Source: Candidatus Aminicenantota bacterium (lineage in GTDB: Bacteria; Acidobacteriota; Aminicenantia; Aminicenantales; UBA4085). Taken from it: 64,000 bases of DNA. The stretch spans positions 275,922 through 339,921 of the forward strand of contig PLMN01000029.1 in assembly GCA_003141555.1 (NCBI GenBank). Reading direction: 5' to 3'. This document shows positions 269 to 17,575 of the stretch, in pieces. The notes beneath the pieces are model-generated. The model was not told the origin of the DNA and ran no database searches. It saw only the letters and a list, made by a program, of their open reading frames with translations. How positions within the stretch are numbered: the stretch's first letter is position 1; each line of letters opens with the position of its first letter. The position numbers and the translations under genes are program-made.

Positions 269-2626
269 CTATTTCAGGACGATCGCGTCCCGCCAATATC
301 GGAGCTTTCCCCGTTCGGCGGTGTCGGCGGTCCCGTCGAAGGCCAGCCCGGACTGCCACAGCCGGCTCTCGATGAGGAGCCGGTCCTTGTAGCTCGCCTT
401 CGTCAAGTTGACCACGGTGTAGACCAGCCGGGGTCCGTCGAGCGCGGCGAACAGGAAATCGCCGTTCGACTCGAAGTCGCCGAACCGGATCTTGCCGTTC
501 TCATAGAGATAGCGCGGCCGGCGGTTGTCGCGGGCCATGTCCTGGCGAAGGTCGTTCTTGGCCGCCACGAAATAGGTCTTGCCGCCGCGTTCGATGCGGA
601 CTCCCTGGCCCGCCCTCGGGGCGTCGACGGGCAGGAGGCGGACTTCGGCGGCGAGCTTGGCCGGATCCTCCCCCGCGGGGTGCGGAACGAGGACGGTTAC
701 GAATCCCGCGGTCTCGCGGAGCTCGAAATGCTGGCCGGTCGTCTGGTGGATCACGAGCTCGTCCTGGTAGTGCCGCTTCTCGGCCTCGACGCCTTCGATT
801 CTGAAGGCCGTCGAGGGGAAGACGACGAGGAGATGCCGGTCCTGGGGAAGCGCGGGACCGGCCGCGCCCCCGGCGCCGCCGATCGTGTCGTAGACCGTGT
901 CGTACCAATGGGGACCTTGGGCGAGGACCTTGCGCGTATGCCACAGGTTGGCCAGGGTGAAATATTCCTCCTTCAGCGCCTTGAAGGCGTCGAAGACGAC
1001 GAACAGATCGGCCTCCTTGACGTAGGCGATGGTCCGGTCCCAGGCGTAGCCCCAGGACTCGTCGACGAGGCGGGTGCGGCTGTAGTCGACGTCGTCGAGG
1101 CTCAGGAAATCCACCTTCTGGGTCCGGACGCGGCGGTAGGATCCGGCATCGCGCAGGAATTCCAAAATCGATTGCCCGGGGATGGAATCTCGGACGGAGT
1201 AGCGCCATTCGTCGGCTTTCTGGCCCATCCATATCTTCTCGGGCCGGACGCAAAGCCGGTTGTGGAAATAGTCCTGGCGATAGTTGCCGTAGGGGCCGCT
1301 GGGCATGTAGTCGCGGTATCCGCCGTCGTGGAGCAGCACCGACCCGCCCGACATCAGCAGGGCGACGGCGTTTTCGTCCGCGTGTCCGTGGGTCATCTTC
1401 TCTTCTTCGACTGGGATCGTGTCGCGCAGGTAGTCGCGATAGTTGAGCCCTCCATCGCCCTCGTCGCGGTAGCCGAGGAGGAGATAGGTGGACGAGGGCT
1501 CCCATCCGCTGCGAAAGACGATTTTCTTGCCCTGGACGTCCTCCATGACCTCGCGCGAGCCGGTCCGAGGTGCGGCCGGCGCCACGGCGTCGGTTCCCCA
1601 GCGGGCGCAGTCGAGGAACATGTAGCCCAGGCCGATGTTGGTCGGCGTCTTGAAGTCGACGAACTTGCGGGCGATGGTCGCCGCGGCCCACTTCAAGGCG
1701 GGGTCGGCGTAATGGCGGGCCGCGGCCTCGAAGAAGACCAGGAAGTGGGTCCAGTTGGCCTGCCAGTGCGCGTCGCCGAAATCGGGGACGATGCCCGCCG
1801 GGCAGATCAGGTTCAGGTAGTACTGGGCATACATGTAGATCGTCGGCATCCGGAAGAGCTCGTCCATCTTGTTCAGGGCGTCGGCGTAGCCCATCATGGA
1901 ATACAGCCAGATGCCGTTGTAGATCGTGGCGTCCTCGATCTCCCATTTGCCCCAGTTGTCGTCGCCCAAGGCGCGCCGCTGCATTTCCCAGACGGGGGCG
2001 GCCTTGGCTTGAGGCAGGGCCCGCAGGGCCCAAGCCAGGTTCTCGGCCCGGAGCATCCCCCGGTTCATCGCCCCCCATTCCTGGGTCCGGAGCATATAGG
2101 CGAGGCTGTCGGCGATGACCGTCTCCGCCGCCGCGTTTTCGACGGGGGTGAGCTGGCCGAGGCGGTGGAGCGTGTCATAAGCTCGGACGTAGCGCATGAC
2201 CGTGAAGAAGTCGGGAAGGGGGGGAACGCCGTCCTCATAGTCGAAGCGGGCTTTGCGGGCGGATTCAGGAAATTCCGCGCGGAAGTCGCCGTAGGTCAAC
2301 AGGACCTTCTTGGCCCGACGGGCGTATTCGGGGTTCCTCTCCGTCTCGAAGAAATAGCTGTAGATCGCCGCCATCTCCAAGAGCCCCCCGGGGGCGCGAT
2401 AGCCGAAGACGTTCTTGGGGTCGAAGCTCTGCCGCCAACGGGCAATGACATCGTCGTAGTTCTTCCAGGTCCAATCGGCCGCGGCTTTGGCATAGGCCAG
2501 ATATTCCGCTTGGCGGACGGGCACGGGAGCGGCGGCGGGCGGCGTCGCCCGTAGGGTGGCGACCGGCGTCAGGGCGGCGGCGGCCGCAATGAGAATGAGC
2601 AGAGCCAAAAGGATTCGTTTCGGCAT
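269..2626 (-). CDS. Secreted heparinase II/III-like polysaccharide-degrading protein
   Basis: This protein of 785 residues has a Sec signal peptide (PKRILLALLILIAAAAA) and an all-helical N-terminal half rich in Trp and Tyr, as in alginate/heparinase lyase toroids. A beta-sandwich C-terminal half follows. The motif HGHADENA at about residue 411, followed by LLHDGGYRDY, is typical of the heparinase II/III C-terminal domain. The family cleaves acidic polysaccharides by beta-elimination in the periplasm; the substrate here cannot be read. The chosen ATG at 2626 has GAGGAGGG ten bases upstream. An in-frame start 12 codons earlier lacks such a site. It lies 61 bases before the toast-rack gene on the same strand, with its own promoter upstream. 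Confidence 0.72.
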   Translation of the reverse strand: MPKRILLALLILIAAAAALTPVATLRATPPAAAPVPVRQAEYLAYAKAAADWTWKNYDDVIARWRQSFDPKNVFGYRAPGGLLEMAAIYSYFFETERNPEYARRAKKVLLTYGDFRAEFPESARKARFDYEDGVPPLPDFFTVMRYVRAYDTLHRLGQLTPVENAAAETVIADSLAYMLRTQEWGAMNRGMLRAENLAWALRALPQAKAAPVWEMQRRALGDDNWGKWEIEDATIYNGIWLYSMMGYADALNKMDELFRMPTIYMYAQYYLNLICPAGIVPDFGDAHWQANWTHFLVFFEAAARHYADPALKWAAATIARKFVDFKTPTNIGLGYMFLDCARWGTDAVAPAAPRTGSREVMEDVQGKKIVFRSGWEPSSTYLLLGYRDEGDGGLNYRDYLRDTIPVEEEKMTHGHADENAVALLMSGGSVLLHDGGYRDYMPSGPYGNYRQDYFHNRLCVRPEKIWMGQKADEWRYSVRDSIPGQSILEFLRDAGSYRRVRTQKVDFLSLDDVDYSRTRLVDESWGYAWDRTIAYVKEADLFVVFDAFKALKEEYFTLANLWHTRKVLAQGPHWYDTVYDTIGGAGGAAGPALPQDRHLLVVFPSTAFRIEGVEAEKRHYQDELVIHQTTGQHFELRETAGFVTVLVPHPAGEDPAKLAAEVRLLPVDAPRAGQGVRIERGGKTYFVAAKNDLRQDMARDNRRPRYLYENGKIRFGDFESNGDFLFAALDGPRLVYTVVNLTKASYKDRLLIESRLWQSGLAFDGTADTAERGKLRYWRDAIVLK

Positions 2627-2739: not shown

Positions 2740-4728
2740 CTACCTGTCGATGACGGCCGCGGGGGACGGCGGCCCGGTCATCCCGTTGGCCGCGCGATAG
2801 ATGATCCGGTACGAGATCCGGCCGATCTTCGGCGGATCGGGATCGACCATCTCGCTTTTGTCGGTCGATCCCGGAAGCCGCAACCATAGCGTCTCGGCTT
2901 CGAGCTTCCGTTCGGATACGGCTTCGAGGCCGGACGGCGGCGCGGCGAACGAGATCCTTACCTGGACAAACGGCTCATTGAGAAGCGCGACTTTGGGCGC
3001 AGCCGGTGTCGGAATCGAGGGCGTTCCGACCGTCACGAGGACTGGCTCCGACGGCAGGCTCCGGTTGCCGCGTCCGTCGAAAGTCACGACCCGATACCAA
3101 TAATCCAGCCCGGGCTGGACGAAAGTGTCCGTATATTCGCGGGCCGAAGCGGGCAGCGGCCGGCCGAGGACGATGCCTTTATCCGCCGCCGACCCCCCTC
3201 GCAGGACGACGAATTGAGCCGAGCGGTTCTCCGGCAGGCCGGGCTTGAAGCGGACGACGGCTTTGCCGTCGCGGGTTTCCACACCGACGATCAGGGGCGC
3301 CGGGGGGAGGCCTTTGACCGGAATGCGGACTTCGAGCGGGGCGCTCGGCGCGCTTTCCTGGTTGTCGAACGCGATGGACCGGACGCGATAGAGGAAGGTT
3401 CCCGACGTCTCCTCGCCGAGAGGAACGTCGAACAGGGCTGCCTGGTCCATGTTCTCGTTGAGGCGCAGCCAATCTCCGTTGGCCGCTTTTTTCTCGACGA
3501 TGTAGCCAACGATAGGGCTTTCGTCCTTGGCCCAGCTGAGGCGGACGCGTGTTCGTCCGATGTCGGCTTTCAATCCTCGCGGCTGCGCGGGAGGAAAGAC
3601 GCTCAAGGCGAGGGCGGACGTCGGGACGGACGGTTCACCCATCGCTCCGCCTGATCCCGCCGAGCGGAGCCGATATAAATAGCTTACGCCGCCCTTGACG
3701 TCGGAATCCTCATAGGTTGCGCGGGATGCCGCCAGCCCCTTGGGCGTGATCGGAAGAAAGGGACCTTTGGCGGAGAAGGCGCGTTCGACGTACACGGCCT
3801 GGGTGCGGGGGCTGGCGTTTGGCTTCCAGGTCAGGGCGACCTTGCCCTTTTTGCCTTCGGCTTTGACCGAGGTGGGAGGGTCGAGGGCTTTCCAATCGGC
3901 ATGGTGGATTTTCATTTCGGCGGGGACGCCGCTCCGTCCGAAGACGTCCAAGGTAAAAACCCTATAGGCCAGGTCCTCTTCGGCGGGGGCTAAGGCGTCG
4001 GTGAAAGCCGGACGACCGGCGCCGCCGGCCTTGTTGAGGAGGACGAGCCTGTCGTTCGCGGTTGCGACATGGCCGCTGGCGTCCGTCCGTTCAATCCGGT
4101 AGCCTATGATGGGCGCGGACGGATTTTCGGAAGGCGCGGACCAATAGAGCACGACTCCCGTCTTTTGGGATTCCCCCTTGAGTCCGGCCGGAGGCTGAGG
4201 AAAAGGCGTCGCGATGGCCGCGTCGATGGGACCGCTTTTCAGGATGGGGCCGGTGGGCCGTCCTGCGGCATCCAAGGCGACGACTTGATAAGTTTGCGAT
4301 CCGCCGGCAACCTTCTCAATCGTTCGGGCTAGGCCGAGGGCCCGGGCATACGCGGGATCCGAATAGGCCCTCAAGACTTGCAGGGAGAAGAAGAGACTTT
4401 TCTCCGCGGATGATTTAAAAGGAGGCAGGGCCTTGGCCAAGGTGCGGATATTTTCGATGTCCTGGCTCGGGAGACCGGCCAGATATTTCTCCTCGCCGAC
4501 CGCGACTTTGGCCATGAGGACGTTTCCCCGGCCGTCCTGGATTTGCCATCCGCCCAGGGGCCATTGCCCCTGGGCGGGGGCCCAGCGCAGCTCCAAGGTC
4601 CCTTTGCCGTCCGAGGCGACGAGGCAGCCGCCCGTCGCCTTGGAGGCCTGGGGGAAAAGGGGACCCGCGAGGAGGACCGCGAAGATGGTGAGGCCGAACA
4701 TCCCGCCCATCGATCGTTGGTTTCTCAT
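2740..4728 (-). CDS. Secreted fibronectin type III repeat protein
   Basis: The product has 662 residues with a Sec signal (MRNQRSMGGMFGLTIFAVLLAGP). An unrecognised N-terminal region follows, then at least four FN3 repeats at roughly residues 176-216, 284-316, 378-413 and 473-513. Each repeat carries a PP start and a YRIERT- or YIVEKK-like strand. FN3 arrays act as spacers or carbohydrate and protein binding modules; no enzyme motif is visible. The ATG at 4728 is 14 bases after the stop of the giant PKD gene, and GAGAAGAG lies just upstream, so it is the third gene of a coupled operon. The likely role is partner of the PKD protein at the cell surface (inference). Confidence 0.75.
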   Translation of the reverse strand: MRNQRSMGGMFGLTIFAVLLAGPLFPQASKATGGCLVASDGKGTLELRWAPAQGQWPLGGWQIQDGRGNVLMAKVAVGEEKYLAGLPSQDIENIRTLAKALPPFKSSAEKSLFFSLQVLRAYSDPAYARALGLARTIEKVAGGSQTYQVVALDAAGRPTGPILKSGPIDAAIATPFPQPPAGLKGESQKTGVVLYWSAPSENPSAPIIGYRIERTDASGHVATANDRLVLLNKAGGAGRPAFTDALAPAEEDLAYRVFTLDVFGRSGVPAEMKIHHADWKALDPPTSVKAEGKKGKVALTWKPNASPRTQAVYVERAFSAKGPFLPITPKGLAASRATYEDSDVKGGVSYLYRLRSAGSGGAMGEPSVPTSALALSVFPPAQPRGLKADIGRTRVRLSWAKDESPIVGYIVEKKAANGDWLRLNENMDQAALFDVPLGEETSGTFLYRVRSIAFDNQESAPSAPLEVRIPVKGLPPAPLIVGVETRDGKAVVRFKPGLPENRSAQFVVLRGGSAADKGIVLGRPLPASAREYTDTFVQPGLDYWYRVVTFDGRGNRSLPSEPVLVTVGTPSIPTPAAPKVALLNEPFVQVRISFAAPPSGLEAVSERKLEAETLWLRLPGSTDKSEMVDPDPPKIGRISYRIIYRAANGMTGPPSPAAVIDR

Positions 4729-4742
4729 GTCTGTTGCTCTTC

Positions 4743-7700
4743 TCAGAGGGATACGCAGAAGCCGATGTCGTCGCAGAGCGGGACGCTGAGCGAAACGCAG
4801 GCGCTGACAATCGTCGGGTTGGGCGTTTCCGCGTGGATGGTGGCCGTGAGATCGGCGCTGATGCACCCCGAAAAGAGGGCGAAATCGACGCACGCCCCGG
4901 CGCCGACCCCGGCGGCAAAATCTCCGGCGACCCGGAATGGTTTCCGCGTGATCTGGAGGCCCATGTCCATCCAGCCTTCGACATAGGTATTGGCGAACGA
5001 GGCCCCTTGGGTCAGCTTCAGGTGGATATTCCCGCCGACGGCGAGCCCGATGGCCGGGTCGCTGCTGAGCATCATGTAGGAGTCGGCCCCGCCCACGTTC
5101 CAGATCGTGGCCTTGATCCGCTGGCCCCATTTGTTGCCGGCGTAGAGATGCCAGCCGCCGCCTCCGAATTTGACTTGGAACGCCGGGTCGTCCTTCGTCC
5201 CGAGATCAAACACGATGAGCCCGCCCAGGAGGTCCATGTTGCCGAAAACGCCGCCTTCGAAGATCTGGTTCCCATACTGCATATAGCCGCCGAAATTGCC
5301 CATGTCGAAGATCTTCACGTTTTTGAAATCCAGGCGGCCGATGCCATCCGTGCCGATCGTCAGAAGGGCGTCGCCCTTGAGGATGAACCCGTCGTCCACG
5401 GACGTCCCGATGGTCAGTCCGGCGGCGAAGGCGAGCTCCCCTTTCATGTCGGGTTGCGCGTCCGAGATCTTTTCGAGCTGGAAGGACGTCGTGGGGAACT
5501 GGTAGCCGAAGCCGCCCTGGAACCCGAAAATGGCCAGGGGAATCGGCGAGAGGGGGATGGTGAAGCCCTGGACGTTGGCAAAGATCAGGAAAAAGCTCTT
5601 GCCGTTCTGGTAGCCCAGGACGAAATCCGCCGTGAGGCCAGCGCCCATGAAATTGAAATCGACGCTCCCCGAGAAGCGGTTGCCGTTCGCCGAGAAATCG
5701 CCCGTTCCGGGATGGTCCGCCGCCCATGGTCCGGCGGCCGTTCCGTCGGGCGCCGGGCCCGGCGAGGCCTGGGGGGTATACGACGGATGGACCGTCGTCT
5801 GGACATCCTGGCTTCCCAGGGGGTAGGCGACGTTCATCTGGTAAGGGGTGTTCCAAGGCCCCTGGCCGGCATAGTCGGCCCCCTTCCGCTGAATCACAAA
5901 GTTGATTTCGACGGTCGAGGCCGGGATCAGCTCGGAATCCGAAAGCGACAGGACGGTTTCCACCGTGAAGTGGAGGCGCTCCTGGCCCGGGACCGATGTG
6001 TCGAGCCCGACGGATTTCAATTGAGCCGTCGATTGGCCGAACGTCGTCGTCCCGTTCAGGGGAATGTCGAGATGATTCGTCGGTCCGTCGAAATGGGCCC
6101 GTCCATCGAAGCCGAACAGGAATCCATTCACCGGGAAATTGGCGAAGGGCTTGCCTTCCGCCTCGAGGCTGAAGGAGGCGATGTTGCACTTGACGACGGG
6201 TCCGGTGGAGTCGGTCGTCAGGAGGAAGTCCTGCGCGGTCATGCTGATCTTGCCGACGTCCTGGTAGGTCTGGGTGACCGGAGGCGAGGTGAGATAGAGC
6301 ATCTCCGTCCCGTAGCCGATTTGATCGTCGATTTTGACGAGCTTGGCGTCGCCCTGCAGGACCGCGGCGATCCAGGGGACCTGGACGGCGAGGCCGTGAT
6401 AGATCCCGTCCGGGGAATCATTGGTCACGCTGAATTCGACGTCCTGGAAATGGAAATGTCCGTCCCCGAGATTGGCATCAAAAATGCCGCTCTTCGCCCG
6501 TCCGCTGAGTCCGCCGGCTCCGACGATCCAGTCTTGGAGATTGTTCATCTTGAACGCGTTGCCGGGCGTCAAATTGAGGGGGATATAAGGGATGACTTCG
6601 GCGGCTCCGAGGTGGATGCCGGTCCAGGCCGGACCCGGGATCGTCGATGACGACGGGGACTGGGCGGAGCTGAAATCCAAGGTCACGTTCGAGCTTTGGA
6701 TGGCGAAATTCGTGAGGCCGATCTGAGTCCGTTCCAGCTTGAGCCCCGGAGCGAGCCAATCGCCCTGCGCCGAAATCGGCGCGGCGACGCCGCTGAACGA
6801 AACCGGGACGGATGCCTGTCCCTTGAGCTGATGGAGCTGCGGGCTTTTGAGAGTGATATCGAATGTGGCCGTCATCGGCGAGAGGGCGCCGCTGGCCACC
6901 TTGCCCCAGATCCGGGTGAGGATCCCCCAAGCGCCCGGAAACGAAAGAGAGGAGGCATTGGCCGTACCCGGGGTGACGTCGAGGACTCCATCCGAAACGC
7001 GGGCTGTCTTTTCGTCGATCGACCAGCGTTTAAAGGCGGCTCCGGCGATGAATTTCTCCTCATGGGCGCTCCCTCCCGTGAGAACAAAAACATGGAGGAT
7101 GCCGCTGCCGCTGTAAGTGTTGTCGGCATCCAGATGAATGTTCGAAAGCGCAACGCCCGAGCCCATGTCGGTCATCGCGAAATCCCCGCCCGAGGTGGGG
7201 AACACGACCTTGCAGCCCAGCTGGTCGCGGACCTCGTTTACCAGGTATGTTTTGGGCTGGGAATAGATTCCGTCGGTCAGGTTGCCGACCGATATGTTTG
7301 GATCGGCGAGGAGGTCATTCAGGTAGGCCACCGGAGGCTGGCCTGAGGCCGGTTCCTGGTTGGGGTTGAGAAAGCCGATCTGGGGAGCGGCCCCTCCGGA
7401 TTTCTGCTGTTCGGCCAGAGCGCCGAGCCAGGGATTCAAGGAGCCCGCCGGGGGTCCGTTTTCGGCGCCGGCGGCGGACGGGCCTTTCTCTTCGGCTAAA
7501 AACCGGGCCGGCGGGGCGGGGGACGAGATGCTCTTGACGGCCGAGCCCATGATCGATCCCATGTTGACTAAACCGAACGAATGAAGGATTCGGACTTCGG
7601 CCAGGACCGTGTGTTTTCCCAGGACGCTCACCGGGAATTTCCCCGACGCGATGATGATCGTGCTGTGAGGGGCGGAGGCGCAATCGGAGCTTTGGCCTTG

Positions 7701-10700
7701 GCCGAGGTTTTGACGCTTTTGGGATGAAAGACCCTGGAGGCCGGTCGTGTCGGTATAAAGGAGCTGGTTGTCGACGTACCAGAGAATTTCGGCGTCCCCC
7801 GTTCCAAAATAAGTCAGCTTGGCCCGGGCATGCAGGGCGGTGTCGCAGGTTACGGCGATGGCATCGATGCCCAGGGCTAAAAGGTCTTTCCGCAGCGTGA
7901 GAAAGCCGTCCTGTCCGGATCCTCCGGATTTAGCGATGCTGTGGCCGGGAAAATCGAGAATCTCGAGCGAAACCAGGTTCAAGGGCCCGAGGGCGCACGT
8001 ATCCTGATAGGTATCGATGGCCAGGTTGTTGCAGTAGACGAGATAGGCGCGGTCCAGGACGCCCGAAAGGGGATTATTGGCGGGCCCGGAATTCGTCCCG
8101 GGCTTTAAAGAAGGGCCGGACGACGCAGGGCTATAGGGAGCGACCTTGTAATAAGGGTCGGTTCCGCTGGGAGGATCGGGCGTGACCGCCTGGCTCAGCG
8201 TCTCGCCGAAGGCATCGATCGGCTGCTGGATATCGTCGTCCGACAGCTGGAAGATATGGACGGTATAGTTTCCGACATATTGATAGGAATGGGCAAACTG
8301 CCCATCCCCAATTTCCACCTCGGTGGATTTGTCCCAGGTCGTCCCGGCGCCTTTGATATTTCCCGAGAGCGGGACGGCGCCCGTGCCGTCGCCCCAGTCC
8401 AGGAAGAGATTGGGCACGTTGACCGACGTCGAATACTCCTTATACTCGCCGTAGGGGGAATTCTGGAGCGAGAAGCTGCCCTGGACGACCCAAACGTCTC
8501 CGATGAGATCGGCATTGGCCAGGACGCTTCCTTTCTTGCGCTTGTCCTTGGTCTGATTGAACAGGCTGACCTTGACCAGGTTCTTCTGCATTCCGCTCGA
8601 TCCGCAGGCCAGGCCTTTGGGCCGGTCGGGCAGCCTGAACAGCGAGAGCTCGGATTCGGCGACCTTGACGGACACGTCCGACTGCTTCGGCGTGTTCTTG
8701 ATGCTGTCGTAGGCGCAGGGGAACGTCCGGAAACCGACGACCTGCCAGATGATGTCCGCCTTCTTGAGGCCATCCGCCCAGCATTGGGCGGCCTGGGCGG
8801 CGGCCATGGCCTCCGGATCCCCTTGGCCGGCCATGTAGTTCTTGAAGGTGGCGGCATAAAACTTGTTGTTGGACGTGTTGACGAGGTTGGCATTGGCCAG
8901 CGGCAGCGGGTTTTCGGGGATATGGGAGAAAAGCTCGAAGATCACGTCGCCGGTCATGTGCAGGCTGAGAGCGGAGCCGGGCAGGGTCTTGGTCATAATC
9001 GGCGCGTTCGATTTCGCATTGGAGAACCGGACTTCCAGATAATCGAAGCTCGGGCCGCCCAATTTCCATTGAAGGACGGTGAAGTCGTCGATGACGGGGA
9101 CGTCGACGACGGGCGGCTTGCCGCTGGGGACCAGGGTTTCAGTCTGTCCCTGGTTCGTGAGTACGAGTTTATACTTCTCCCAGGTCATCCAGGCGGGCCC
9201 GGTCAGGGAGATCCAATCCGGGTCGATTTTGGCCAGATCGACGCAGGGATTGATATCGCTCATCTGGGCAGGCGGCTTCGACTTGGGCGGGGCTATGCTG
9301 ACCTTGCCCGGACCGATGTTGGTTCCTTGTTCGTTGGTCGCCTGGGCGAGGCGTTCGCCCTCCTTGGCCGTCATCGGGACGAAGACCTCCAGATAAGCCA
9401 GGGCGAACGAGATGCGATTGAATGTTTTGACCCCAATGCCCGGGAGTGAAATGGCCGTCGAATCGGTGAACCGAAGGCCTTCGAGCCTGAGGTTGTATTC
9501 CTGGCCCCGTTCCAACGTGTCCGGAATGATCTTCTGGACGATCGGGGCTACCGTATTCTCGGTGGGGGGGATCATGATGGGCTTGGCGACGGGGGTGACG
9601 GTCTGGGCCGAGGCGCTGACGAAATAGCTGATCGACGGGATCGAAAAGTCGGTGGCCGGCCTGAGAATCACAAGCGTCACCGTGTGCGGCCCCAGGACCG
9701 CGGTGGGAAGCCCGGGCAGCTTGCCGGAATTGATCGTCATCTTGTCGGCGAACGTCAGGCTGAGCGCATCGGTTTTCACCGAGGTCCCGTCTACGCGCCA
9801 TTCGACCTGCAGCAGGCCCGTGCCTTCGTACTTGAGATCGGCATAGGCGGCGACGCCGGAGGCGCCTTGGCCGACCTGGATGTTCGTCGTGCCGTTTTCG
9901 AAGCGGAGGCGGCCATAGGTCACCGCGAACGGGGCCAGGGGGCCGACGGAGGCCGTGACCGCAACGGAAAGGGTCGCCGTGCACGCCGTGTTTCCGCAGT
10001 CATCGGTGGCCGTGACCAGGAATGTCCCGGCGGCCTTGAAGGTATGCGAGGCGATCGCGGTTCCGGTCTGGCTGCCCGTCCCGTCCCCGAAGCTCCACTT
10101 GACGCAGGACGAGTTGAAGCCCGACGCCTGGAACATCAGAGGAATGCCGGTCTTGGCGGGTAGCGGGGAGGCGGCCAGGGACCTCTTGTTCACGACGATG
10201 ACGGTCGTCGTAGCAGAGGGCTTGTCGACGCCTCCGTCGGAGGCCCGGACGAGGTAGGTTCCGGGTTGAAGGTAGGCATGCGTCTGGACGAAGGGACCGG
10301 AGGGGATGACGACCCCGTCGCCGAAGTCCCAGCGGATGGCCGATATGAAGTTCCCGGCCTGAAAGGTTACGTTTTCGCAGGTATTGGCCTGCGCGGGCGA
10401 GGCGGAAAGCGTCCGCTTGTTGACGACGGTCACGCTCGTCGCTGCCGGGCTCGAATCCGCCGCCCCGTCATACGCCCGGACGGCGTAGGTCCCAGGATTC
10501 TGATAGGCGTGTGTCTGTACGGTCGAGCCGCTCGTCACGCCGGCCCCGTCTCCGAAATCCCAACGGACGGAGGCTTGGGTGAAGTTGATCGCTTGGAAAG
10601 TCACGGTCTCCAGGACGTTCGGCTGGAAGGGGGAAAAGGTGATGCTTTTGGGGAGGACGGCGGTCACGGTCACGGTCGTCGTGTCGGTGACGGGGACCGG

Positions 10701-10994
10701 GGCGCCACTGACGGAGCGATAATAATAAAGCGCGGAGGCCGTATACGTCCCGGCGGCTCCGTAGGCGTGGACGGTCGTCAGCTGGGTCGTCGCGGTTGTC
10801 GTGCTCGCGCCGTCTCCGAAATTCCAGGTTATTCCATTGGCGGAGATCAGGTTTGGGGGCGAGGGGTTGAGGACGAAGAGGACTGAATCGTTGACTTTGG
10901 GGCTGCCCGGACTAAACAACAGCGAGGCTTCGAGGCAGGGGAGAAGGCCGACAAGGGCCAGACCGATCGCCGCCGCCCGCCGGAACGTCTTCAT
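4743..10994 (-). CDS. Giant secreted PKD-domain surface protein (2083 residues)
   Basis: A signal peptide (residues 1 to about 22) is followed by four consecutive PKD domains, with WNFGDG, WDFGDG, WDFGDG and WSFGDG near residues 57, 146, 223 and 302. A diverged fifth, LDWGDG, lies near 867. Two related modules near residues 388 and 1061 share the pattern E/FGTG..(E)W.VD, ending LG.HTV. The C-terminal half (about 1300-2083) is beta-rich and unrecognised, with a Trp/Gly segment around GGGGWHLYAG and a Cys-rich end. PKD domains usually mediate protein or glycan contacts. GGGAGG precedes the ATG at 10994. The start overlaps the upstream stop by 4 bases (ATGA), indicating translational coupling. 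No catalytic motif or sorting signal is evident. Confidence 0.8.
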   Translation of the reverse strand: MKTFRRAAAIGLALVGLLPCLEASLLFSPGSPKVNDSVLFVLNPSPPNLISANGITWNFGDGASTTTATTQLTTVHAYGAAGTYTASALYYYRSVSGAPVPVTDTTTVTVTAVLPKSITFSPFQPNVLETVTFQAINFTQASVRWDFGDGAGVTSGSTVQTHAYQNPGTYAVRAYDGAADSSPAATSVTVVNKRTLSASPAQANTCENVTFQAGNFISAIRWDFGDGVVIPSGPFVQTHAYLQPGTYLVRASDGGVDKPSATTTVIVVNKRSLAASPLPAKTGIPLMFQASGFNSSCVKWSFGDGTGSQTGTAIASHTFKAAGTFLVTATDDCGNTACTATLSVAVTASVGPLAPFAVTYGRLRFENGTTNIQVGQGASGVAAYADLKYEGTGLLQVEWRVDGTSVKTDALSLTFADKMTINSGKLPGLPTAVLGPHTVTLVILRPATDFSIPSISYFVSASAQTVTPVAKPIMIPPTENTVAPIVQKIIPDTLERGQEYNLRLEGLRFTDSTAISLPGIGVKTFNRISFALAYLEVFVPMTAKEGERLAQATNEQGTNIGPGKVSIAPPKSKPPAQMSDINPCVDLAKIDPDWISLTGPAWMTWEKYKLVLTNQGQTETLVPSGKPPVVDVPVIDDFTVLQWKLGGPSFDYLEVRFSNAKSNAPIMTKTLPGSALSLHMTGDVIFELFSHIPENPLPLANANLVNTSNNKFYAATFKNYMAGQGDPEAMAAAQAAQCWADGLKKADIIWQVVGFRTFPCAYDSIKNTPKQSDVSVKVAESELSLFRLPDRPKGLACGSSGMQKNLVKVSLFNQTKDKRKKGSVLANADLIGDVWVVQGSFSLQNSPYGEYKEYSTSVNVPNLFLDWGDGTGAVPLSGNIKGAGTTWDKSTEVEIGDGQFAHSYQYVGNYTVHIFQLSDDDIQQPIDAFGETLSQAVTPDPPSGTDPYYKVAPYSPASSGPSLKPGTNSGPANNPLSGVLDRAYLVYCNNLAIDTYQDTCALGPLNLVSLEILDFPGHSIAKSGGSGQDGFLTLRKDLLALGIDAIAVTCDTALHARAKLTYFGTGDAEILWYVDNQLLYTDTTGLQGLSSQKRQNLGQGQSSDCASAPHSTIIIASGKFPVSVLGKHTVLAEVRILHSFGLVNMGSIMGSAVKSISSPAPPARFLAEEKGPSAAGAENGPPAGSLNPWLGALAEQQKSGGAAPQIGFLNPNQEPASGQPPVAYLNDLLADPNISVGNLTDGIYSQPKTYLVNEVRDQLGCKVVFPTSGGDFAMTDMGSGVALSNIHLDADNTYSGSGILHVFVLTGGSAHEEKFIAGAAFKRWSIDEKTARVSDGVLDVTPGTANASSLSFPGAWGILTRIWGKVASGALSPMTATFDITLKSPQLHQLKGQASVPVSFSGVAAPISAQGDWLAPGLKLERTQIGLTNFAIQSSNVTLDFSSAQSPSSSTIPGPAWTGIHLGAAEVIPYIPLNLTPGNAFKMNNLQDWIVGAGGLSGRAKSGIFDANLGDGHFHFQDVEFSVTNDSPDGIYHGLAVQVPWIAAVLQGDAKLVKIDDQIGYGTEMLYLTSPPVTQTYQDVGKISMTAQDFLLTTDSTGPVVKCNIASFSLEAEGKPFANFPVNGFLFGFDGRAHFDGPTNHLDIPLNGTTTFGQSTAQLKSVGLDTSVPGQERLHFTVETVLSLSDSELIPASTVEINFVIQRKGADYAGQGPWNTPYQMNVAYPLGSQDVQTTVHPSYTPQASPGPAPDGTAAGPWAADHPGTGDFSANGNRFSGSVDFNFMGAGLTADFVLGYQNGKSFFLIFANVQGFTIPLSPIPLAIFGFQGGFGYQFPTTSFQLEKISDAQPDMKGELAFAAGLTIGTSVDDGFILKGDALLTIGTDGIGRLDFKNVKIFDMGNFGGYMQYGNQIFEGGVFGNMDLLGGLIVFDLGTKDDPAFQVKFGGGGWHLYAGNKWGQRIKATIWNVGGADSYMMLSSDPAIGLAVGGNIHLKLTQGASFANTYVEGWMDMGLQITRKPFRVAGDFAAGVGAGACVDFALFSGCISADLTATIHAETPNPTIVSACVSLSVPLCDDIGFCVSL

Positions 10995-12955
10995 TGGACG
11001 CCTCCCGATCCGAGTGAGATATCGGCCTTGATGAAGATCCTGTGATCCTTGATCTCCTGCCCGCCCATTCGGGTCAGGATGAGCGCCGCCCGGAGCGAGA
11101 TCACGGCCTCGCCGATCTTGATCCACTTTCCCAGACGGAGGTTCAGCCCGCCGTCGAAGTTCGAGGAATTCGAGACGCCGCCCGTCCCGAGGTCATAGCG
11201 GGACAGAGATCCGATGACGTTCACCGAAAAGAGCTTCGGGACGAGCGTCACATCGGCGTTGAGGGCGGTTATAAGCATCAGGGTCGATTCGCCCGTGAAC
11301 TTGTTTTTCGTCCGGCTCAGGCCGAAGGTCGGGGCGAAGATGAGGCTGTCGGGCGCCTGAATCGAGACTCCGAGGTTCGCGCCCAGGGAGTCGCCTTCGA
11401 CCTCGGGGTTGTCCTCGCTCTGGATCTCGTCCTTCTGGCCCGTGAGAGAGAAACGGATGAGGGGCGTGATCCCGACATCCAGGCCGCCCGTGAAGCCCGT
11501 CCTGAGCAGGTTTCCCTGGAGTACCGGATTGTCGTTGAGGCGGGCGTCCTGCCGGCTCGTCCCGTAGCCCAGGCGCACCGAAGAGCTGTCCAGGAACTGC
11601 CAGGCGACGTCGAGCTGGGTCAGGATGTTTTTCGATGTGGTGACCTCGGGATCATCGGCCGTGTTGTTGCGCTCCGAGGCCCAGGAGCCGCTCAGCCGGA
11701 CGGTCTTGATCGTCACGCCCGCCCCGGCTTCGATCCTCCTCCGGTCATTGATAAAGAACGGCTGGGCGATCGTGTTGAAGTCCCGGCCGATGTCATGGTA
11801 GCCGATCCTGGCGTCGAAAATGCCCAGGTTCAGCGCGGCCCCCACCCGGAAAGCGCCGCTGCCCACCTTGCCCGCGTCGTCCGATGTGTCCTTATCGTAG
11901 TTGCTCCGGGCGTATTCGGCCGAAAGGGTCAGGGCGCTGTTGAAGAGCCGCGATTCCCCTGCGATGGCCATGAGGTCGCCGGCCCGCTTGTTCATGATTC
12001 CGCCCGCGCCGGCTGCGTTGGCCGCAAGAGCCGGGTCGTCCTGGCCGCTGAGGTAGATCGCCTTGACCGTGACGGCCTCGGTCAGGGTGAAGCCGGCGGT
12101 CCCGCCGAAGAACGAGGCCGCCGCCTTCGGAATCCCGATGCCTTTGAAGCCCTGCAGCTGCTCGGTTCCCGCGGTGAAAAGATGAAAATAGAGGCTCTTG
12201 TTGTCGAAGACGTATTCGATGCCGCGGTTGCCGGGGCCGCCTGTCGTGAATTCCGAATCGGCGATTTGGAGGTCGCCGGCGCGGATCGCGTGCGAGCTCT
12301 TCGTGACGGAAATCCTCATGTCGGGCAGGTCCGCGGCGCTGGCGTTGGAGAGGAGGCGGTTGGTGTAGGACGCCCTGGCCTGCACGTCGAGGGCGAAGTC
12401 GTCCTTGGACGTCGTATAGGCCAGGCCGAGGTTCGTCGTCTGGCCGGGATCGGGGGAAACCGGTTGGCTCATTTGTTGGGTGATTGTCGCATCGGCGCTG
12501 GCGTCGAGCCGTACGGGAAACGGGGTGGCGGCGGGAACGGAAAGGGCCCCGGCGCCCTGCGGCGGGAGTTCCCCGATCAGGGCGGTTTCGAAGAGAGCCG
12601 CGGGCGGATTTGGCGGCAAATAAGTGATGCCTGCCGCGGATTTATAAGCGAAGAAGTATTCGATTTTCGGGGCGTTGATGCCGGCGGTTTCTATCCGGGC
12701 TTCCAAGGTATTGTCGGTTCCCGGGCCGAGCCGCTTGGCCGCGAATTCGTCGGCTCCGGAAGCCCGCCAGAAGACGATCACCCAGTCGGCCGGCGCCTTG
12801 AGCGCGGCGGCAACGACCAGGATTTCTCCCCGGTTGACGGAGGGGAGGGCGTGGGGCTCTATCCGATCCTGCGCGCCGGCCGCGGCTGCCCCGAACAGCG
12901 CCGTCGTTGCGCCGGCGACGAAGAAGGCGGACGGGAGGAAACCCCTCTTTTTCAT
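10991..12955 (-). CDS. Outer-membrane beta-barrel protein with N-terminal sandwich domain
   Basis: A protein of 654 residues with a signal peptide ending near residue 28 (AAAAGAQ). A short Ig/FN3-like N-terminal domain (about 30-125) is followed by many alternating amphipathic strands of 10-12 residues with Gly/Tyr/Arg turns up to the C-terminus, which is barrel-like. The last residue is not Phe, which is less typical of BamA substrates. It is first in an operon with the PKD and FN3 proteins, so a role as outer-membrane anchor or exporter of the PKD protein is plausible but inferred. AAAGGG lies upstream of the ATG at 12955, and a near-consensus promoter lies 32-60 bases upstream. Confidence 0.65.
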   Translation of the reverse strand: MKKRGFLPSAFFVAGATTALFGAAAAGAQDRIEPHALPSVNRGEILVVAAALKAPADWVIVFWRASGADEFAAKRLGPGTDNTLEARIETAGINAPKIEYFFAYKSAAGITYLPPNPPAALFETALIGELPPQGAGALSVPAATPFPVRLDASADATITQQMSQPVSPDPGQTTNLGLAYTTSKDDFALDVQARASYTNRLLSNASAADLPDMRISVTKSSHAIRAGDLQIADSEFTTGGPGNRGIEYVFDNKSLYFHLFTAGTEQLQGFKGIGIPKAAASFFGGTAGFTLTEAVTVKAIYLSGQDDPALAANAAGAGGIMNKRAGDLMAIAGESRLFNSALTLSAEYARSNYDKDTSDDAGKVGSGAFRVGAALNLGIFDARIGYHDIGRDFNTIAQPFFINDRRRIEAGAGVTIKTVRLSGSWASERNNTADDPEVTTSKNILTQLDVAWQFLDSSSVRLGYGTSRQDARLNDNPVLQGNLLRTGFTGGLDVGITPLIRFSLTGQKDEIQSEDNPEVEGDSLGANLGVSIQAPDSLIFAPTFGLSRTKNKFTGESTLMLITALNADVTLVPKLFSVNVIGSLSRYDLGTGGVSNSSNFDGGLNLRLGKWIKIGEAVISLRAALILTRMGGQEIKDHRIFIKADISLGSGGVQ

Positions 12956-12986: not shown

Positions 12987-13015
12987 AATCTATTGGAATC
13001 AGAACGGTTTGTCAA
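12987..13015 (-). promoter_or_regulatory. Promoter of the barrel-PKD-FN3 operon
   Basis: On the minus strand, a perfect TTGACA (13010-13015) is separated by 17 bases from TAGATT (12987-12992). The distance to the ATG of the barrel gene is 31 bases. Its strength suggests substantial constitutive transcription of a transcript over 10 kb long. Confidence 0.65.
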
Positions 13016-13128: not shown

Positions 13129-15987
13129 TCAGTTCAAGCTGCCGCCGGCGACGCCTCCTATGACGCCGTCCTTCGCTGCGCCGAGGTAGATGCCGTTGAA
13201 CAGGAACTTGAACGTCCCATGCGGCTGGCCGCGGAACGTGATCTCGGGCCCGAAAAGGAAGACCTTTCCTTTTCCGATCGTAGCCGTCACGGCCTGGACA
13301 CCCCGCCAGAGGTATTCATCGCCCCAAACCCAGCCGCTCCGGAGGGGATTCGCGCTCTCGAACCAGGCGACGGCCTGGGCGCCCCGGAGGCCGGCGTCTG
13401 GCAACATGTCGAAGACGGGGCTGTTGTCGAAGAAGACGTCCACGGCGTCCGGCATTCCATAGGCGATGGGATTGGTGGTGTCCACCCTCACCTGGAGGAT
13501 CGAGCCCGGCACGTAGAATTTCTGGTTGGACAGGGCCACTTCGCGGCCGTCCGCCGTCTTTTCGACGAGATGGTTGGCGATGGGCAAGCCGAGATGATAG
13601 CCCAAGGCGGTCGCGCTGCCGATTGTGAGGACCGTCCCGCCCTCTTCGATGAATTTCCGGATCTGGGGGATGGTCTTGTCGACAGTGACGCTGCCGATCA
13701 TGCCCCGGTATTCCTGGGGAATGGCGTCCGGATTCTGCGCTCCTCCGAACCCGCCCCCGCCACCTCGCCCGCCCCGGCCGCCTGATCCGAAGGATGGGAT
13801 GCCTCCGTTGATGAAAACCAGGACATCGAATTTCGCGTTGAGGTTCCCGGCGTCGAGCGTCGGGGCGTATACGACCTCGAACGGGAATTCGAACTGGGTC
13901 AGGATCCACTGAGCCCAGCCCGAATCCATGGAGCCGCCGTACATATCCCATACGCCCAGGCGCGGCTGATGGAGCCGAGTGACTTCGGATGGCGCCTGTC
14001 GGACATCCACCGCCTCGAAGGATACGCCGAGGTCCTTGATCGCCTTGGTCAGAATGGGCAGGATGGCCGGCTTGTTGGGAATGAAAATCGTGCCCGCGGG
14101 CCAGAGAGCCGTCGCGGTCTGAAACGGCTTCTTCAGCCAGTAGACTTCTTCTTGAGCCTTGAAAATGCGGTTGACGACGATGGCCGAATCGTTGACCTGA
14201 TGACTCAGCAGATAGCCGGCCGTAGGCCAGGGATTGATCGCGGGCAGGGGAGCGCCTGCGAGCTTGGCGAAGCCCTTGATCTCGACGAACGGGCCGTCGA
14301 AGGGCTCGAGGATGCGGTCGAATTTGACGCCCATCTGGAAAGCCACGGTCCAGCCTGCGCTGTCGTAGGGAGGCCGCGGGGGACCGCCGGGATACGTAAA
14401 GTCGTTCGGATGGTCCTGGGGCTCGAACATGCTGATGACGTGGGCCCGGTAGGCCTGGGCGGTCTTGACGATGAAGGAGCCCGCCGAATAGGTTTTGTTC
14501 TGGACGGTGAACGGCTTCGTGGCCTGGTGAACCGTGACGCCGCTCTTGATCAGGGTGTTGACGAACTTGATCGCGGTGAGGAAGTCGGCCTGGGCCGGGG
14601 AGATGATGAAGCCGCGCGGGTCGCGCTTGGCGGGATCGCGGAGCATGTCATAGTACTTGATCGGCGTGCCGCCGCCGCGCATGCCGCCGCCCGCCTGGGG
14701 AGGCGGAGCCACCGTCCCGGCCGGCGCCGCGGCGGACCGGTCTTTCTCGATCTGGGCTTGAAGGCCCGCGATCTGCTGGGGCAGGAACGTCCAGGTATCC
14801 GTGCTGCCCTTGGCAATGGCGTTGCGGCCCATGATGTAACGGTTATAGAGGACTTCCTCGCGTCGGCGCGAGGCGTAGTCGAGGATGGCCTTGTCGGCTG
14901 TGATCAGATAGTCGATCGTGGATCGGAAGTGCCACTTCTGGGGCATGATGGGATAGGGGTAGTCGCCCTTGGGTAGGACCCGGTCGGGCAGGAAAGGGAT
15001 ATCCTGGGGCGTCGGTCCGCCGATGATTTCGGTCAGGATGCCGAGGGCATTGTGGAAATAGCCCGAGCTCCGCAGGCCGCCGTTCCACCAGGTCGAGTAG
15101 GCCGCTCCGGAGCGCATGATCGCCCCGGGCTTGCCCTCGGCCGCGAACCGCTCGTGCATGGCCAGCCCGAGGAGGTCGGTCCCCAGGGGGATCATGGGAT
15201 CGAAGTGGTAGAAAAACGGGTCGCGGAACGGCGGGCAGAAGAGGACGGTGCCCGGCGGGCCGGATTGGTGATGGTTATAGATGATCTGAGGATCCCACTC
15301 GATGAAGAGCTGGCGGCTGACGTATTCGGTCTCGGGTTGGGCGACCATATAGTAGTCGCGGTTGTTGTCGTGCCCGACGTATTTCTGATAGAGGCGCGGC
15401 AAGCCGCTCATCGTCCGCTTCAGGGGGTCCTTCTCGCGCAGATACCAGTCGGCCACGAGCTCGAGGCCGTCGGGGTTCACCGGGCAAGCCAGGAGGATCA
15501 CGTCGTCCAGGATGCGGAGCGTTTCCTCGTCCCGGCCGCTCAGCATCTGATAAACGAGCTCGATGAGCTGCTGCGAGCCGGCGATTTCGCTGGCATGGAG
15601 CCCGCCGTCGATCCAGACGACAGCCTTGCCCTGCGTCGAGAGCTTTTTTGCCTCGGCGTCGGTCAGCCCCTGGGCCAGGCAGAGCCGCCGCGAGATCTGC
15701 TTGTAGAGATCGAGCTTGCCGAGGTTCTTGGGCGAGCTGATGATGGCCATGATCATCGTCCGGCCCTCTGAGCTCTTGCCGATCTCGACGAGCTTCATCC
15801 GATCGGATTCCTTGGCCAGCTTCTTCCAGTAGGCGGTGAGCTGGATGTAGTTGACGAGCTGGTAGTCGTCGCCGACATTGAAACCGAGCTCCTCCTTGGG
15901 CGACGTGATCCTGCCTTGGGCGGCAGCCAGGGAGGCCAGGACGGCCAGGACGGCGACGAGGACGGTCAGTCGGGCGAGTCTCTTCAT
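13129..15987 (-). CDS. Secreted M14-family zinc carboxypeptidase
   Basis: A 952-residue protein with a Sec signal (residues 1-23) and an M14 domain at about 40-380. Zinc ligands are H131 and E134 (HASE) and the NHH at 238-240. N209-R210 matches the substrate-carboxylate binding pair, and the Glu in ILTEIIGG is the likely general base. The family removes C-terminal amino acids or trims peptides in the periplasm. The remaining 550 residues hold a glutamine-amidotransferase-like Rossmann region (LGVWDMYGGSMDSGW onward) with a Gly-rich insert near residue 735, as in other large bacterial M14 proteins. AAAGGAA precedes the ATG. It is monocistronic, with a terminator downstream. Confidence 0.88.
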   Translation of the reverse strand: MKRLARLTVLVAVLAVLASLAAAQGRITSPKEELGFNVGDDYQLVNYIQLTAYWKKLAKESDRMKLVEIGKSSEGRTMIMAIISSPKNLGKLDLYKQISRRLCLAQGLTDAEAKKLSTQGKAVVWIDGGLHASEIAGSQQLIELVYQMLSGRDEETLRILDDVILLACPVNPDGLELVADWYLREKDPLKRTMSGLPRLYQKYVGHDNNRDYYMVAQPETEYVSRQLFIEWDPQIIYNHHQSGPPGTVLFCPPFRDPFFYHFDPMIPLGTDLLGLAMHERFAAEGKPGAIMRSGAAYSTWWNGGLRSSGYFHNALGILTEIIGGPTPQDIPFLPDRVLPKGDYPYPIMPQKWHFRSTIDYLITADKAILDYASRRREEVLYNRYIMGRNAIAKGSTDTWTFLPQQIAGLQAQIEKDRSAAAPAGTVAPPPQAGGGMRGGGTPIKYYDMLRDPAKRDPRGFIISPAQADFLTAIKFVNTLIKSGVTVHQATKPFTVQNKTYSAGSFIVKTAQAYRAHVISMFEPQDHPNDFTYPGGPPRPPYDSAGWTVAFQMGVKFDRILEPFDGPFVEIKGFAKLAGAPLPAINPWPTAGYLLSHQVNDSAIVVNRIFKAQEEVYWLKKPFQTATALWPAGTIFIPNKPAILPILTKAIKDLGVSFEAVDVRQAPSEVTRLHQPRLGVWDMYGGSMDSGWAQWILTQFEFPFEVVYAPTLDAGNLNAKFDVLVFINGGIPSFGSGGRGGRGGGGGFGGAQNPDAIPQEYRGMIGSVTVDKTIPQIRKFIEEGGTVLTIGSATALGYHLGLPIANHLVEKTADGREVALSNQKFYVPGSILQVRVDTTNPIAYGMPDAVDVFFDNSPVFDMLPDAGLRGAQAVAWFESANPLRSGWVWGDEYLWRGVQAVTATIGKGKVFLFGPEITFRGQPHGTFKFLFNGIYLGAAKDGVIGGVAGGSLN

Positions 15988-16026: not shown

Positions 16027-17439
16027 TCATCTGGGATTCTCTCTCAAGTCAAGCGGCAGGGGGGCCGCGGCGAGGACGTCCTCGCGGGCGTAAACCAGGC
16101 CGACGGTCCGAAGAAGGCTTTGGAAATCCGCTTCGCCGAGGTCGTCGCGGAGCGCCGCTTCGACGGGCTTCCCGAAGTGGATCTTCTCGTTCACGGAATC
16201 GATCAGGCCGTTGATCTTGATGTAGGTCTTGGCCGGGGCCTTGTCCAGGACGATCGTGACCTGTTCGCCCCGGATGAACATGGCCTTGACCTCGGGAAAA
16301 TCCTTGAGTTTTTTGGCGAGGGCTTGGAGCCTCCGCTTCTTCCGGTTCCGGATCGAGCGGTAGAAATAATACACTACGAAGGCCGGACCGATCAGGCTTC
16401 CAACCTGGACCTTGAGGAGAAGGAAGACGACGGCGAGAAGGATGGCGGCCAGGAGGATGATCAGGCCCAGCGTGCCGCCCGGGATCGAAGCCTTGAGCGT
16501 CTCGAGCCAGCCGGTGAAGCGCTCGAGGGGCGGGGCGGACAGGCGCGTTCCCGATTCAAGGTCGAACTTCAGGCGCTTGAGGTCGGCGGCCAGGTCGCGC
16601 GCGTCGGGGTAGCGGTCGTCGCGGTTCTTTCTCAGGCAGCGGGCGATGATCCGGTGGAGCTGGGGCGGGAGGCTTTTCCGGACGATCGTCACGGGCTTGG
16701 GCTCCACGTAGGCGATCGAGTGCATGGTGTCGAGGAGGCTGTCGCCCCGGAAGGGGAGCTCGCCCGTGACCATCTGGTAGAGGACGATGCCGAGCGAAAA
16801 GATGTCGCTCCGCGGATCGAGGGCTTGTCCACGCGCCTGCTCGGGGCTCATATAGTGAATCGTGCCCAGGACCGCTCCGGCGAGGGTGTGCGGCTGGCCT
16901 ATGGTCAGGGTCCGGTCGATGGCCCCGGGCGGCGTGCCGGGCGCATCCGCCCCGGCGTCGAGGAGCTTGGCCAGCCCGAAGTCGAGGAGCTTGGCGTGCC
17001 CGTCCCGGGTGACCATGATGTTGTCGGACTTGATATCGCGGTGGATGATGCCCGCTTCGTGGGCCATGGCCAGGCCTTCCGCGACCTGGAGGCCAATATC
17101 CACCGAGCCGAGAAGGTCGAGCTCGCCTTCGGCGATCAGGCGGGAGATCGTCCGGCCGTCGACGTACTCCATGGCGATGAACGTCGTCCCCGCCTCCTCA
17201 TCGATGTCGTAGACCTGGGCGATGGCGGGATGGTTGAGGGCGGCGGCGGTCCGGGCTTCGGCCAGGAAGCGCGCCCTGCGGTCCGGATCGGCGACGAGCT
17301 CGGGCTTCAGGAGCTTGATGGCCACGGGCCGTTCGAGGCGCATGTCCCGAGCCAGATAGACCACGCCCATGCCGCCGCCTCCGATCAGGCTGTCGATTCT
17401 GAAGTGCTTCAGCGTCCGGCCGATCATGGAATCCGTCAT
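16027..17439 (-). CDS. Membrane-anchored Ser/Thr protein kinase (Hanks type)
   Basis: A 470-residue kinase. The Gly-rich loop is GGGGMG (20-25), the ATP-binding Lys is K42, the catalytic loop is HRDIKSDN (D135, N140), DFG is at 153-155 and SPE is in the activation segment. All catalytic residues are intact. A transmembrane helix at about 335-357 is followed by a basic, Tyr-rich stretch and a C-terminal domain of about 110 residues that I do not recognise. No PASTA or other sensor repeat is seen. I chose the ATG at 17439, with AAGGGGAA upstream. An in-frame ATG nine codons earlier overlaps a possible -10 box (TATGGT) and has poor spacing to a ribosome site. It is transcribed divergently from the transporter gene. 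Confidence 0.88.
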   Translation of the reverse strand: MTDSMIGRTLKHFRIDSLIGGGGMGVVYLARDMRLERPVAIKLLKPELVADPDRRARFLAEARTAAALNHPAIAQVYDIDEEAGTTFIAMEYVDGRTISRLIAEGELDLLGSVDIGLQVAEGLAMAHEAGIIHRDIKSDNIMVTRDGHAKLLDFGLAKLLDAGADAPGTPPGAIDRTLTIGQPHTLAGAVLGTIHYMSPEQARGQALDPRSDIFSLGIVLYQMVTGELPFRGDSLLDTMHSIAYVEPKPVTIVRKSLPPQLHRIIARCLRKNRDDRYPDARDLAADLKRLKFDLESGTRLSAPPLERFTGWLETLKASIPGGTLGLIILLAAILLAVVFLLLKVQVGSLIGPAFVVYYFYRSIRNRKKRRLQALAKKLKDFPEVKAMFIRGEQVTIVLDKAPAKTYIKINGLIDSVNEKIHFGKPVEAALRDDLGEADFQSLLRTVGLVYAREDVLAAAPLPLDLRENPR

Positions 17440-17575
17440 GGGTGTCGCCGTTCCCCTTAATACCATACCCCTCTGCTCCGGTCAAACAACGGGAAGGGGA
17501 GGGCGCCGCTCCCGCCGGAACAATCATTGATTCGGCTTGTTTTTTCCGCATCGACCGAATAATAATGAAACAATC

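Follow-up and report, generated by a model that had tools for sequence, protein, structure and literature searches.

Outer-membrane systems for display or secretion are few, and most of them were found in model organisms. Barrels of 26 strands are known from LptD and from MtrB-type proteins; outer-membrane barrels usually end in phenylalanine or tyrosine, the so-called beta-signal, and their N-termini are normally periplasmic. Among the described systems, SprB is bound at the cell surface by the barrel SprF, a member of the FadL family with 14 strands (PMC9143113). Here we describe a module of four parts, designated B, W, G and F, that looks like an undescribed cell-surface system; a search of the literature, covering open-licence papers, returned no description of the gene set.

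In the window, by which we mean the whole 64,000-nucleotide stretch of DNA analysed, open reading frames and their translations place the module in three close-packed genes on the minus strand, which encode a barrel protein (B), a giant protein (G) and an FN3 protein (F). The fourth part, W, is a small protein with PKD or TIG domains and a W.VD module; it is the usual partner of B, and in the window it forms the N-terminal part of G. The features of the locus, in the order in which they are read, are:

12987..13015, minus strand: sigma-70-like promoter match just upstream of B, agreeing at 10 of 12 consensus positions
10991..12955, minus strand: B, barrel protein of 654 aa with a Sec-like N-terminus (open reading frame and translation)
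12575..12862, minus strand: B residues 32-127, predicted N-terminal Ig-like domain (AlphaFold secondary structure)
11012..12514, minus strand: B residues 148-648, predicted 26-strand beta-barrel (AlphaFold model)
4743..10994, minus strand: G, giant protein of 2083 aa, with an ATGA overlap with B
9615..10994, minus strand: G residues 1-460, the W part, with a signal-like N-terminus, four PKD repeats and a W.VD module (356-460); a gene of its own in relatives
4746..9557, minus strand: G residues 480-2083, conserved core in which four cysteines are invariant (from conservation)
8235..8477, minus strand: G residues 840-920, fifth PKD-like module (NLFLDWGDG), kept in relatives without other PKD repeats
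7593..7862, minus strand: G residues 1045-1134, second W.VD module (from the module positions in G)
5775..7211, minus strand: G residues 1262-1740, predicted 25-strand antiparallel beta region (AlphaFold; LptD-like in Foldseek)
4749..5681, minus strand: G residues 1772-2082, predicted C-terminal amphipathic beta-meander with some 16 long strands and 2% charged residues on one face
2740..4728, minus strand: F, FN3 protein of 662 aa, 14 nt past G

The original prediction had read these genes as a coupled surface system of three proteins, and its account of the layout was accurate: B and G overlap at an ATGA (positions 10991-10994), 14 nt separate G from F (positions 4729-4742), and the hydrophobic, Sec-like N-termini visible in all three translations are consistent with the signal peptides it had proposed. 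The five PKD motifs it had counted in G were located at residues 57, 145, 222, 300 and 867, together with both W.VD modules. Its one strong promoter stood in part. The site, TTGACA-17-TAGATT, is present and is among the two best matches in a region where five sigma-70-like sites were found against 1.7 ± 1.5 expected, but it is a consensus match only, which does not bear out the strength ascribed to it.

We searched for relatives in whole genomes from this phylum and class, and scanned 84,980 species genomes once with a single peptide pattern, so that the distribution reported here is a lower bound. Most relatives are metagenome-assembled contigs that carry their submitters' labels. G occurs in 3 of 142 genomes of the class and in 11 of 297 genomes of the phylum, and relatives of its core were found in Acidobacteriota and in assemblies labelled Acidobacteriaceae, Gammaproteobacteria, Mizugakiibacter, Deltaproteobacteria, Desulfobacteraceae, Desulfomicrobium and Nitrospiraceae. 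In a neighbourhood check set beforehand, the predicted conservation of the triad was borne out: F is the next gene past G on all 22 contigs that continue (19 together with L029, L091 and L140), which come from Acidobacteriota and from assemblies labelled Desulfobacterota/Deltaproteobacteria, Nitrospiraceae and Gammaproteobacteria. The layout is identical in a genome of the same family (L020), where the gaps measure 14 nt and 11 nt. Most loci have the order B-W-G-F, and the Nitrospiraceae have G-F-B-W. The recurrence of gene order and tight spacing in distant phyla is more than chance.

Apart from the module genes themselves, no conserved neighbour was found beside any relative, so the borders of the module are clean. 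A larger operon that would take in the upstream M14 carboxypeptidase, the kinase or the downstream 785-aa protein was rejected, as none of these adjoins any relative. We also rejected a plasmid-borne element, the C-terminal part of G having no plasmid match, and anti-phage defence, there being no match of B, G or F to a PADLOC model at E values up to 0.01.

The association of G with F extends beyond adjacency. F matches the Pfam fn3 domain (E 4e-13), and F at full length, scoring above 1000 bits, is confined among the 142 class genomes to the three that bear G, where it adjoins G; the remaining FN3 matches in these genomes reach at most 75 bits and cover partial stretches. Tree distances of G and F are correlated (rho 0.75, 0 of 5000 permutations), in part because the genomes share descent.

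A comparable link joins W to B. In 39 of the 46 barrel loci examined W lies directly after B or is fused with it. Of the seven exceptions, four are at the edge of a contig (L057, L059, L067, L075); in L024 the start was mis-called, and the barrels of L080 and L086 are truncated and remote, respectively. W is a free gene in L088, L089, L090, L092, L093, L095 and L141; it is joined to the N-terminus of G, as judged by profile matches, in the window and in L020, L021, L085 and L140; and in other Acidobacteriota (L084, L099, L023/L094, L118, L119) the W.VD module is fused in front of B. That the same part is fused to different partners, B or G, according to lineage strongly suggests that B, W and G act together. 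The fusions show a functional link among the three, from which neither a direction of export nor a compartment follows. The number of PKD motifs in W ranges from 0 to 6, and such free variation fits an exposed stalk. B itself is present in 33 of the 142 genomes of the class, the majority of which lack G, and B-W alone is what most of these B-bearing members carry. We propose that B-W is the minimal and common form, and that G-F is an extra cargo pair.

The PKD domain of G scores far above its Pfam threshold (PF00801, 98.5 bits against a cut-off of 23.5, E 2e-28), and Pfam and NCBIfam gave nothing for G beyond PKD-type matches. The original prediction had made these repeats the essence of a three-gene system. 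Its claim of a coupled and conserved set holds, but the repeats do not define that set and the fourth part, W, had been overlooked: the four N-terminal PKD repeats of G are lineage-specific, being missing from distant relatives or replaced there by TIG, and we have therefore discarded them as a defining feature. Conservation lies instead in the core, which has no Pfam or NCBIfam match bar one PKD-like module; no Pfam family was matched by the 18 C-terminal halves of G. Four cysteines of the core (797, 988, 1050 and 1261) are kept in 20 of 20 giants, and they fit an oxidising compartment.

B is predicted to be an outer-membrane barrel. The AlphaFold model, built on a shallow alignment of 31 sequences (pLDDT 83), has an N-terminal Ig-like domain and a barrel of 26 strands, in keeping with the original assignment of the first gene, and the C-terminal residue is phenylalanine or tyrosine in most B homologues. 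The window's B has no Pfam or NCBIfam match, and the expectation that it stands outside the known porin families was thereby upheld; Pfam gave few and weak matches across the 31 barrel homologues, to SlpA_C or porin. The Ig-like domain has further, weak support in a match of the B sequence profile to the domain at residues 319-404 of bacterial peptidylarginine deiminase (E 0.003). The barrels of L086 and L100 are remote homologues, and in L085 the gene that precedes G has no demonstrable homology to B.

Our preferred reading, to which we assign a probability of roughly 0.5, is that B anchors or passes W, G and F at the outer surface, the four together making up an outer-membrane display module. 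We infer a physical complex, a surface location, a route across the outer membrane and a ligand. All four parts would cross the inner membrane by Sec, B would fold into the outer membrane, and the W.VD module would either dock to B or thread through it; this would anchor G, and F would bind G. The outcome would be a disulphide-stabilised, beta-rich surface structure, probably in contact with glycans, particles or other cells. Against display, it should be noted that fusions of W to B could equally place W in the periplasm, unless W threads through the barrel, that the C-terminus of G appears amphipathic enough for outer-membrane insertion or for a lipid groove, for which a plain adhesin would have no need, and that no export signal of the known outer-membrane secretion systems was found. 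Two secretins are encoded in the window's genome, and the outer membrane might be crossed by way of a secretin.

The rival that survives best is transport across the envelope, in which the C-terminal half of G would be an LptD/TamB-like groove or barrel that passes lipid or glycolipid to or through B, with W and F as periplasmic adaptors. We consider this unlikely, though deserving of serious weight. The AlphaFold model of G residues 1185-2083 is all-beta and of moderate confidence (pLDDT 77, pTM 0.51), and its top ten Foldseek matches are all to LptD (E 1e-5 to 1e-3); however, the TM-scores are only 0.11-0.15 and the model was derived from 18 sequences. Within it the C-terminal sheet consists of 16 long strands and has a hydrophobic face that is 2% charged; its match to porin barrels, over the final 310 residues, reaches a Z of about 13, but with an rmsd of about 12 Å. 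What the model describes is a long, amphipathic sheet of antiparallel strands that may be a groove or a barrel, and homology with LptD or porins does not follow from it. Transport would also accord with the 26 strands of B, the number found in LptD and MtrB-type barrels, and with the placing of W on the N-terminus of B, which suggests a periplasmic position. On the other hand, profile comparison links G neither to LptD nor, in its C-terminal half, to a Pfam family, no conserved inner-membrane or ATPase partner lies nearby, and the PKD/TIG count varies freely. We also looked for homology between the C-terminal half of G and the barrel B, and found none.

We think it improbable that B, W, G and F are a surface-layer or envelope scaffold that coats or tethers the outer membrane with no transport or adhesive task. 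Such a scaffold would suit proteins assembled from Ig-like, PKD and FN3 modules; three B homologues give hits to the barrel domain of SlpA (PF21620, E 4e-6 at best), and Deinococcus S-layer complexes stand near the top of the Foldseek list. These SlpA-type matches are, however, few and weak, and the patchy spread of G within class and phylum would be unusual for an envelope scaffold. An MtrB-like electron conduit, in which a redox protein would span the outer membrane insulated by the 26-strand barrel, is so improbable that we have dropped it: MtrB is the closest structure to B (6r2q_B, Z 18.6, rmsd 4.0, 443 aligned), a match owed to equal strand number, but no open reading frame with three or more CxxCH motifs occurs in any locus scanned, and none of the 31 barrels has a Pfam match to an MtrB-type family.

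Returning to the module as a whole, it may be, and this we hold only tentatively, an outer-membrane machine not yet described, in which W docked on the 26-strand barrel carries a G with an LptD-like groove or second barrel, and which serves either to translocate a lipid, a glycolipid or a protein through the outer membrane or to build a new type of surface appendage. If so, such a machine would be common to Acidobacteriota, Desulfobacterota, Nitrospirota and Gammaproteobacteria. The module is a compact, conserved set of four protein parts in four lineages, of which at least B and the G core are uncatalogued, and its recognition would name a barrel family and a 1,600-residue protein core that are missing from current family libraries. 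The fusions reveal internal wiring and so offer an experimental handle on binding partners and location.

Set beside T9SS, type V secretion, LptD and MtrB, B-W-G-F fails at least one defining feature of each. The MtrB/PioB porin-cytochrome systems have a 26-strand barrel, a strand number shared with B that is not specific, but the loci scanned contain no multihaem cytochrome and there is no family match. LptD and the Lpt bridge resemble the module in their 26-strand barrel and in the Foldseek similarity of the C-terminal half of G, and differ in that the TM-scores are low and the module is without Lpt partner genes. In LptD one protein combines a beta-taco groove with the 26-strand barrel that follows it; the Foldseek matches of G to LptD come from a model of moderate confidence. 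Membership of LptD was rejected after hhalign of the G profile against E. coli LptD gave a probability of 0.6% over 27 columns, with no Pfam match. Like generic PKD-repeat proteins, G has a PKD domain above the Pfam cut-off. DUF6603 (PF20248) has a match below that cut-off (E 9e-4) in L122, a remote relative of the C-terminal part of G, which overlaps the corresponding region of G, but no member of the G family matches it. The likeness to type V secretion lies in the arrangement of W, which is either fused before the barrel, as in autotransporters, or encoded by a separate neighbouring gene, as in two-partner systems. The barrels there have 12 or 16 strands against 26 in B, and the 31 barrels gave no POTRA, ShlB or TPS match and a single weak Autotransporter match (1 of 31, E 0.003).

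In Bacteroidota type IX secretion, the SprF/PorP-like barrels and SprB, a giant adhesin with a type B CTD, likewise combine an adjoining barrel with a giant, repeat-rich exported protein. None of the 31 barrel homologues matches the PorP_SprF family (PF11751), and no T9SS C-terminal domain was found on G by Pfam or NCBIfam or in the 18 C-terminal halves. In the window's genome there was no match to PF11751, a weak result as the control genomes were silent too, nor to the SprA translocon (TIGR04189), for which the control genomes were silent as well. SprF has 14 strands, whereas B is predicted to have 26 and an N-terminal Ig-like domain, and we know of no F-like partner of SprB. As a precedent, SprF and SprB nevertheless support the picture of a giant protein held at the cell surface by a barrel.

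Among the genes flanking the module in the window, neither the 785-aa protein, which has no Pfam or NCBIfam match, nor the 952-aa M14 protein is conserved next to the module in relatives.

269-2626 (-): 785-aa secreted-looking protein, downstream of the FN3 protein gene F
13129-15987 (-): upstream of the barrel gene B; encodes 952 aa, including an M14 zinc-carboxypeptidase domain
16027-17466 (-): encodes 479 aa, including a serine/threonine protein-kinase domain (E 2.5e-46)

Elsewhere the module itself varies in content. In the related loci L068, L069, L070 and L071, W proteins (the usual PKD/TIG partners of B) are encoded on each side of B, one of 600-690 aa and the other of 780-946 aa, with an additional conserved gene (560-936 aa) upstream; in L070 two W genes lie in tandem downstream of B. 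This arrangement is a bigger version of the B-W module.

L070:7026-15492: W genes on either side of B

Possible extra copies of F and of the giant protein G were also encountered. In locus L023 an ORF with a strong F-profile match lies about 770 nt past the full F gene and is perhaps a partial duplication of it.

L023:791-1750 (-): 319-aa ORF (E 6e-64)

One Acidobacteriota MAG, G118, appears to carry two copies of G, one with a complete 3' end and the other divided between two contigs (its contigs C168, C190 and C256 correspond to loci L117, L022 and L125, respectively).

Relatives of the giant's C-terminal part were found in two further loci.

L124:6225-12923 (+): adjoining 1080-aa and 1148-aa proteins
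L122:3242-11278 (-): 2678-aa protein of another Acidobacteriota genome

The 1080-aa protein corresponds to the C-terminal region of G only, and the 1148-aa protein, which begins 9 nt after it, matches the F profile weakly; the two genes are possibly a more divergent G-F pair. In the 2678-aa protein, a sub-threshold DUF6603 match overlaps the region remotely related to the C-terminal part of G, and a 3-keto-disaccharide hydrolase domain, also present, is a possible hint of glycan contact.
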